This document shows, piece by piece, positions 44,197 through 46,747 of a DNA stretch of 64,000 bases. Positions within the stretch are counted from its first letter, which is position 1, and every line of letters begins with the position of its first letter. This stretch comes from Halalkalicoccus sp. CGA53 (GTDB lineage: Archaea; Halobacteriota; Halobacteria; Halobacteriales; Halalkalicoccaceae), in contig NZ_CP144125.1 of the NCBI RefSeq assembly GCF_036429475.1, positions 310,001 through 374,000 of the forward strand, in the 5' to 3' direction. The position numbers and the translations under genes were made by a program. The notes under the pieces were generated by a model. That model was not told where the DNA came from, ran no database searches, and saw nothing but the letters and a program-made list of their open reading frames with translations.

Positions 44197-44275
44197 GGTC
44201 GAGATAGGCGGTCGGGGGGTAAACGCCTTCCCCGGGAGCCGGGGGGCTTTAGTCCGACCGCGGCAAACCCCGGGC

Positions 44276-44983
44276 GTGAACGACGAGGGACGGCTGCCGA
44301 CTGGCTGTGGGGCGCTCGACGAACTCGTCTGCGGCGGGCTCGAACGCGGGACCGTCACGCAGGTCTACGGTCCACCCGCGGCGGGGAAGACGAACGTCGC
44401 GCTCTGTGCTGCCGTCGCGGCGGCCGCCCGCGGCGAGCGCTCGGTCGTCATCGATACGGAAGGGATCTCGATCGACCGGTTCGGACAGCTCCTCGAGGCC
44501 TCCGCGGCGGATACCGAGGAGTCGATCGAGACCATATCGGGACGGGTCGTCCTGCAGGAGGTCTACGACTTCGAGGGCCAGGAGGAGGCGGTGCGAGACG
44601 CGGCCGAGCTCGCGGAGAACGTCGACCTGATCGTCCTCGACAGCGCGACCGGTTTCTACCGGCTCGAACGCGACGACGACGACGGCGGCGAGACGCTCCG
44701 ACGGGTCGGGCGACAGGTCACACACCTGCTCTCGCTCGCCCGCAGACACGACCTCGCGGTGCTCATTACCAACCAGGTGTTCACCGACCCCGATGCCGAC
44801 CGGATCCGAGCGCTCGGCGGGCACACCCTCGGTCACCTCACGGGGACGGTCGTCAGACTCGACCGGTTTCGAGGTGGCAACCGCCGGGCGACGCTCGAGA
44901 AACACCGGGCGAAAGCCGTCGGCGAGAACGTCACCTTCCGGATCACCGGTGACGGGATGGAGAGCGTCGAAGACATCATCTGA
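44276..44983 (+). CDS. radB: DNA repair protein RadB
   Basis: A 235-residue RecA-family ATPase without the N-terminal domain of RadA, as is normal for RadB. The Walker A is GPPAAGKTN near residue 32, Walker B is VDLIVLDSATGFY, and ITNQVFTDPD follows. RadB is a recombination mediator that assists RadA and interacts with Hjc in some archaea. Start is GTG 44276. The next gene on the plus strand is far away, and the 3' end faces the CBS-HPF gene. Confidence 0.93.
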   Translation: MNDEGRLPTGCGALDELVCGGLERGTVTQVYGPPAAGKTNVALCAAVAAAARGERSVVIDTEGISIDRFGQLLEASAADTEESIETISGRVVLQEVYDFEGQEEAVRDAAELAENVDLIVLDSATGFYRLERDDDDGGETLRRVGRQVTHLLSLARRHDLAVLITNQVFTDPDADRIRALGGHTLGHLTGTVVRLDRFRGGNRRATLEKHRAKAVGENVTFRITGDGMESVEDII

Positions 44984-45198: not shown

Positions 45199-46341
45199 TT
45201 AGAGCTCGTTCAGCTTTCTCAACAGCTGGCCCTCGTAGAACTCGTCGCTCTCGATGCCTTTCATCTCGATCACGTTCCGTTCGAGCTTGTCGAGGGCGAC
45301 GTGGAAGGCGTTGTCCGCACCGTAGCCCTCGCCGGAGCCGGCGACCTGCCCCCGGTTCGTGCGGAGCCGGATCGCACACTGGATCAGCGGCGTGCCCCTG
45401 AGTTTCTCCTTGTGCTTCTGGAAGCGGACGTGGGCGTGGTGGACGTCCATCCGCCTGTACTTATCGCAGACGGCCTCGATGTCCCGGCGGATGTCCTGGC
45501 GCTCGATCGTGTCCAGCAGGTCGATGTTCGTGATCTGGACGTCGAGGTGGTCCTCCTCGGTGAAGGTGAGCGCGCGGAGCACGTCGCTCTTCGTGACGAC
45601 ACCGGCGACGAGGCCGTCGTCGTAGTCGGGGGTGACGATCAGCCCGGAGTAGTCGTTGTCGAGCATTCGCGAGACGGTTTCGTCGACGGTCTCGCCGATC
45701 GTGGCGGTGATCACCGGACTGTTCATCACGTCCCTGACCGGGATGTCGAGTACTCGCTCTAAGTCGCCGCCGCGGTCGCCGACGGTCGCCTTGTCCATCC
45801 GCCTGACGACGACGTCACGGAGGTCGTGGATCGTGACGACACCGGTGAGCCGACCGTCCTCCTCGACGACCGGCAGCCGGGAGATACCGTGTTCGCGCAG
45901 CAGGTTGATCGCGCGGCCGACGCCCGTGTCCGTTCGAACCGAGACGACCTCCTCGGTGTAGATCTGGTCGACGGTGATCGCGTCGAGGTTCTCGAGGACC
46001 GCCTCGAGCAGGGCGTCGGCGTGGATGAAGCCGTAGAGCTCCTCGCCGTCGAACACTGGCGCGACCATCGTCCCACCCTCGACGAGCATCCGTGCGACCT
46101 CGCGGACGTCGGTGTCGATGTCGATCTGTGGAGCCGAGCGCATGAACGCCGCGGCCTTGGTACTGTCCTCGACGTGGGACTGGAGCAACTGACGTTCGGT
46201 GATGATCCCCGCGTACTCGTCGTCGCGGGTGACGATGATCCCCTTCGGGTTCTCCGACCCGAACCGGGCGCGGACCTTCCCGAAGCGTTCCTCGGCGTCG
46301 ACCTGCACGAACTCCGTGGTCGCGATGTCTACGATATCCAT
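45199..46341 (-). CDS. Four-CBS protein fused to a ribosome-hibernation (HPF/S30AE-like) domain
   Basis: A 380-residue protein. Residues 1-265 hold four CBS motifs in two Bateman modules (for example GIIVTRDDEYAGIITERQLL, ISRLPVVEEDGRLTGVVTIHDL), which bind adenine nucleotides. Residues about 267-365 (LDVQITNIDLLDTIERQDI to AGSGEGYGADNAFHVALDKLERNVIE) follow the beta-alpha-beta3-alpha pattern of HPF/S30AE proteins, which bind the decoding site of idle ribosomes. The likely role is energy-sensed ribosome silencing. ATG 46341 is the start. It has no operon partner. Confidence 0.8.
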   Translation of the reverse strand: MDIVDIATTEFVQVDAEERFGKVRARFGSENPKGIIVTRDDEYAGIITERQLLQSHVEDSTKAAAFMRSAPQIDIDTDVREVARMLVEGGTMVAPVFDGEELYGFIHADALLEAVLENLDAITVDQIYTEEVVSVRTDTGVGRAINLLREHGISRLPVVEEDGRLTGVVTIHDLRDVVVRRMDKATVGDRGGDLERVLDIPVRDVMNSPVITATIGETVDETVSRMLDNDYSGLIVTPDYDDGLVAGVVTKSDVLRALTFTEEDHLDVQITNIDLLDTIERQDIRRDIEAVCDKYRRMDVHHAHVRFQKHKEKLRGTPLIQCAIRLRTNRGQVAGSGEGYGADNAFHVALDKLERNVIEMKGIESDEFYEGQLLRKLNEL

Positions 46342-46429
46342 ACCAACAGCGAGGGTTCGCCGTCCAGGGTTAAAACCGTTGGTCCGGACGATCATCAGCG
46401 TTTAGACAGCTCCCGCCCTCGCTCCGCTC

Positions 46430-46747
46430 GTGAAGCCGAACATCGCCGTCTTCGGGAAGTACACCTACCTCGCGACGATCGTCCTCTGGGGGGCGATCAC
46501 GGTCGCGCTGCTCCGGCGCGCGGGGGCGCTCCGCAAGGCCACCGTCTCCGTGCTCGCGATCTATCCGGTCGCCTACATCTGGGACTGGTACACCCTCGAC
46601 GTAGGGATCTTCGAGATAAAGCTCAGAACGGGGATCGAGGTCGCAGGGATCCCGCTCGAAGAACACCTCTTCGCCGTCGTCGTCCCCGCGCTCGTCATCG
46701 CGATCCACGAGAACGTCCACGGCACTCGGGCGGACGACAGTGGCTGA
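46430..46747 (+). CDS. Single lycopene-cyclase-domain membrane protein
   Basis: A 105-residue protein with three hydrophobic segments. The motif GIEVAGIPLEEHLFAVVVP is the conserved core of lycopene cyclase domains of the CrtYc/CrtYd type, and YIWDWYTLDVGIF fits the region before it. Full archaeal cyclases carry two such domains; this has one. It may form dimers, act with a partner, or do something else. It starts with GTG 46430 and stands alone; no carotenoid gene is nearby. Confidence 0.75.
   Translation: MKPNIAVFGKYTYLATIVLWGAITVALLRRAGALRKATVSVLAIYPVAYIWDWYTLDVGIFEIKLRTGIEVAGIPLEEHLFAVVVPALVIAIHENVHGTRADDSG

Follow-up and report, generated by a model that had tools for sequence, protein, structure and literature searches.

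The closest described relative of the gene discussed here is HibA of Pyrococcus abyssi, published by Madru et al. in Nature Communications in April 2026, which joins four tandem CBS domains to an HPF/RaiA domain and whose family was detected in 47% of archaeal genomes (PMC13324472). Its presence on ribosomes has been proven by cryo-EM and in vitro translation, with structures deposited as PDB 9SR9-9SRF and 9T7H (Q9UYR4); on the 70S it adopts three conformations, in which the HPF domain occupies the channel of the 30S while the CBS module is positioned above the PTC, uL5 or the L1 stalk, and the loop that reaches the PTC (residues 190-207) is located between CBS3 and CBS4 (PMC13324472). Deletion of HibA in Thermococcus barophilus results in smaller 70S pools and delayed regrowth (PMC13324472). 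Adenine nucleotides bind at the CBS3/CBS4 interface of the P. abyssi protein, with Kd values of about 12 uM for AMP, 65 uM for ADP and 113 uM for ATP, but native complexes showed no nucleotide, and neither AMP nor ATP clearly altered the main conformations, their distribution or ribosome binding (PMC13324472). In Haloferax volcanii, a protein of the same layout, HVO_2384, was named and described in mBio in 2025, where it co-purified with the inactive acetyltransferase variant Pat2 Y154A and was found to be acetylated in vivo at two lysines (PMC12607858). P. abyssi HibA (Pab0961) had earlier been co-purified with RadB and GINS proteins (PMC3820547).

The window analysed here, 64,000 nucleotides of Halalkalicoccus sp. 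CGA53 (contig NZ_CP144125.1, positions 310,001 to 374,000), carries on its minus strand (46341-45199) an open reading frame of 380 amino acids plus stop, whose product, HibA1, is very probably an orthologue-grade, haloarchaeal representative of HibA, an archaeal family of ribosome hibernation factors. Its domain build, fold, homology and conserved sites, as well as its near-universality in Halobacteria, were established in the present analysis. The preliminary description of this locus had proposed a CBS-HPF fusion, and this architecture was borne out by four Pfam CBS matches and by AlphaFold2 and Foldseek analyses of residues 262-380; the fusion itself, however, is not new, since the family has already been named and characterised, and the gene of the window is an ordinary orthologue within it. 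The question raised by that description is thus already answered at the family level, because P. abyssi HibA and HVO_2384 have both been published. New in detail are the occurrence of the family in 243 of 244 haloarchaeal genomes and the existence of a second, distinct clade, HibA2. The coordinates of all features are collected in Table 1.

Table 1. Features of the hibA locus in the window, and the second HibA-type gene of the same genome
Feature	Position	Strand	Basis or description
hibA-type gene (HibA1)	45199..46341	-	ORF, Pfam, full-length homology, conserved start codon
Start codon ATG	46341	-	
Stop codon	45201-45199	-	
TATA-like TTTTAA	46370..46375	-	-34 to -29 from the hibA ATG
CBS1	46171..46341	-	Residues about 1-57; canonical Thr-x-x-Asp absent (TERQ)
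CBS2	45988..46170	-	Residues about 58-118; motif degenerate (HADA)
CBS3	45808..45972	-	Residues 124-178; TIHD motif; best stretch in Pfam
PTC-loop equivalent MDKATVGDRGGDLERVLD	45745..45798	-	Residues 182-199, aligned to P. abyssi HibA 190-207
CBS4	45559..45744	-	Residues about 200-261; TKSD motif
HPF/RaiA (S30AE-like) C-terminal domain	45202..45558	-	Residues 262-380; AlphaFold2, Foldseek, profile search
HKEKLRG motif	45394..45414	-	Residues 310-316; conserved in the HPF domain
SGEGYGADNAFHVALDKLE	45280..45336	-	Residues 336-354; HPF domain
radB (Rad51/RecA-like)	44249..44983	+	Pfam Rad51 E=6.2e-22; synteny; convergent downstream neighbour of hibA
Second HibA-type gene, HibA2 clade	C2:3186361-3187578 (G000); L002:1432-2649	-	Same genome

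The start of the gene could be fixed with confidence: an upstream in-frame ATG at 46395 was ruled out because M1 is identical in all 46 aligned homologues. The TATA-like box, 29-34 nucleotides upstream of the retained ATG and with similar boxes at comparable positions in relatives, suggests that the transcript is leaderless or carries a very short leader.

Among solved structures, 9l96_a is the nearest chain by sequence (E=3.2e-70, phmmer against the PDB), followed by 9sr9_H, the chain of P. abyssi HibA (E=7.5e-44), which matches end to end, over residues 3-377 of 380, at about 31% identity. HibA1 and P. abyssi HibA share four tandem CBS domains followed by a C-terminal HPF/RaiA domain, the nucleotide motif of CBS3/CBS4, a loop at the PTC-loop position and the conserved residues of the HPF domain; they differ in the acidic, halophilic composition of HibA1, in the sequence of its PTC loop and in that its binding to the ribosome would be deduced from the P. 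abyssi protein. HVO_2384 has the same layout and is probably an orthologue. Dri of Pyrobaculum and Sri of Methanosarcina are likewise ribosome-bound archaeal CBS modules that resemble the CBS part of HibA1 in structure, Dri consisting of paired CBS modules, but neither has been reported with an HPF domain, and Foldseek matches to both span the CBS part only. Membership of the Dri group, defined by two fused CBS modules without an HPF domain, was therefore ruled out for a protein with one CBS module and an HPF domain. A plain CBS regulator of the IMPDH, MgtE or AMPK-gamma kind was also rejected, as those matches cover nothing beyond the CBS part. Bacterial HPF/RaiA/YfiA proteins have the fold of residues 262-380, at 11-23% identity, and lack a CBS module.

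In the N-terminal part, the four CBS stretches (PF00571, E=1.6e-37) form a unit that, in the full-length model, matches the four-CBS discs of AMPK-gamma, Dri and Sri (Foldseek). The T/S-x-x-D residues of CBS3 and CBS4 in P. abyssi HibA are kept, with D173 (CBS3) and D253 (CBS4) invariant in 46 homologues, while the motifs of CBS1 and CBS2 have degenerated; each chain would accordingly be expected to have one adenylate site. The PTC-loop equivalent is equal in length to its P. abyssi counterpart and is modelled with low pLDDT, and its G188, R190 and G192 are invariant in the haloarchaeal copies aligned.

The C-terminal domain required a structural approach, since Pfam alone would miss or doubt it: the S30AE profile (PF02482) matches residues 283-361 with 17.6 bits over the full-length protein and 20.1 bits for the domain alone, below the curated cut-off of 23.7 bits, even though the fold matches. 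Thirteen of 23 homologous C-terminal domains match S30AE at E<=0.01, the best at 1.3e-5. Comparison of a predicted structure with HPF had been set beforehand as the test of the proposed domain. The AlphaFold2 model of residues 262-380, generated with 23 homologous sequences (pLDDT 80, pTM 0.71), displays an E-H-E-E-E-H topology, and in a Foldseek search of the PDB all matches ranked 1-28 are HPF/YfiA/pY/RaiA/RafH-type chains (best E=1.6e-5; TM reaching 0.67 relative to the query length and 0.81 relative to the target length); 9L96 and 9SR9 are both absent among the 50 matches listed for either HibA1 model. A PDB search with a profile of the domain recognizes 9l96_a (E=8.7e-28), 9sr9_H (E=5.9e-26) and, weakly, B. 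subtilis HPF (E=0.14). The proposed role in ribosome hibernation is thus supported by the predicted fold and by full-length homology to HibA.

Within this domain, the HKExLRG and GEGYG motifs of P. abyssi HibA are kept, and H310, E312, R315, G341, R355 and K361 are, like the two CBS aspartates, invariant or nearly so. The stretch SGEGYGADNAFHVALDKLE, in which G341 is invariant and E338 present in 45 of 46 homologues, had been read as matching the second helix of HPF; this holds approximately, as in the full-length model (strand at 331-340, helix at 342-379) it covers the beginning of the last helix but also the end of the last strand. The domain has no net basic charge (19 K/R versus 22 D/E), unlike typical RNA-binding domains, as would be expected of a halophile.

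The match to the family in 243 of the 244 sampled halobacterial genomes was counted at E<=1e-20, and all copies from haloarchaea group in a single clade (99 SH-aLRT), within which the maximum-likelihood tree separates HibA1 (support 100/99) from HibA2 (100/100). As a separate S30AE protein of the canonical type was not detected in the genome of the window, the HibA family provides its candidate HPF. The second copy in this genome is 40% identical to HibA1 in the genome search and carries a Gly-rich PTC-loop region that is 17 residues longer (SQGG...GGFGAREGE), as well as a C-terminal WWL tail. A search with this copy reveals a clear score gap, from 275 to 234 bits, that marks HibA2 as a separate class of 90 copies in 75 of the 244 genomes, 11 of which have two or three. 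The CBS3-CBS4 loops of this class measure 48-56 residues versus 31 in HibA1, and the PTC-loop insert, of 17-25 residues, is rich in Gly and Ser and has an invariant QGG and a GG(F/Y)GxR core. In three haloarchaeal genomes (G138, G030, G224) the matches to HibA1 are weak but the scores are those of the HibA2 class, and HibA1 may have been lost or replaced there.

The chain of PDB 9L96, which is also present in 9L98, 9L9C and 9L9V, is of the same haloarchaeal build as HibA1, with four CBS domains and an HPF domain, but differs from it by its long PTC-loop insert; it groups with HibA2 in the tree, is closer to the second copy of this genome than to HibA1 (334 versus 240 bits), and finds its best genome match in Haloferax profundi (77%). 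Haloarchaeal uL2 is common to these four entries, while searches with uS7 and uS12 returned no haloarchaeal chains from the 9L94-9L9V series; as far as entry codes can tell, this suggests that HibA2 has been seen on large subunits. The series comprises haloarchaeal large-subunit entries, four of which contain a HibA2-type CBS-HPF chain, and no publication for it was found in the literature searched.

By analogy with P. abyssi HibA, HibA1 itself would be expected to bind ribosomes, to inhibit them and to bind nucleotides. Its four-CBS disc would extend to the 50S, with the loop at the peptidyl-transferase centre or the disc over the P/E sites, a placement that would block tRNA and mRNA and could thereby shield assembled but idle 70S until the cells grow again. 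AMP would probably bind between CBS3 and CBS4, as would ADP and ATP with lower affinity. Weighing against this role are the identity of only 31% to the characterised HibA and the lack of net basic charge in the C-terminal domain; moreover, direct ribosome evidence for the haloarchaeal HibA1 clade was not found, and the haloarchaeal CBS-HPF chain solved with a ribosomal protein (9l96) falls in the other clade. The assignment of a near-universal haloarchaeal gene to the HibA family makes hibernation testable in the genetically tractable Haloferax, and draws attention to an accessory clade of paralogues whose PTC loop is altered.

The part of the preliminary description that concerned energy sensing fares less clearly. 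That the CBS module could be a true energy switch, by which AMP promotes, or ATP relieves, ribosome silencing, is in keeping with the retained CBS3/CBS4 residues, with the resemblance of the CBS part to AMPK gamma and with the micromolar affinities of the P. abyssi module (PMC13324472); but native complexes in which nucleotide was not seen, and conformations and ribosome occupancy left largely unchanged by AMP or ATP (PMC13324472), render such a switch possible yet rather unlikely, and a link between energy charge and silencing is unproven even for P. abyssi HibA, the best-studied member. A second role of HibA could be envisaged because Pab0961 was found with RadB and GINS proteins (PMC3820547), and radB is the neighbour of hibA in the window, at a convergent distance of 215 bp; HibA1 might then work with RadB, or be sequestered by a DNA-repair complex. 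Among 20 haloarchaeal genomes sampled, radB lies next to hibA in convergent orientation in 8 and no more than 8 kb away in 13, yet many haloarchaea have lost this adjacency, among them the other genus of the family, the two genes do not form an operon, and the HPF fold is already explained directly by the ribosome. Such moonlighting in recombination seems improbable, and the proximity of radB, together with the P. abyssi pull-down, is a lead rather than evidence for a shared function.

The two well-separated clades also evoke a division of labour in which HibA1 silences the 70S and HibA2 targets 50S subunits that are free or still maturing, an idea that draws on the Gly/Ser-rich insert of HibA2 and on the uL2-containing entries for which no matching uS7 or uS12 was found. 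These entries may, however, simply model the 50S part, and HibA2 retains the HPF domain, which targets the 30S, so that this arrangement is at best a tentative proposition. A more elaborate version, rather doubtful at present, would posit two haloarchaeal HibA systems: a near-universal core HibA1 for 70S hibernation and a patchy, accessory HibA2, sometimes on secondary replicons, whose Gly/Ser-rich loop with its invariant QGG would probe the PTC or the exit tunnel of the free 50S.

The sister genus within the same family carries a third copy type (L019, L020, L021, L022), 51-54% identical to the protein of the window, that arose within the HibA1 lineage and groups as a clade by itself. On its other side, hibA is flanked by a divergent gene for a lycopene-cyclase-domain-like membrane protein of 105 residues (46430-46747, plus strand), a neighbour that recurs in most haloarchaea examined.
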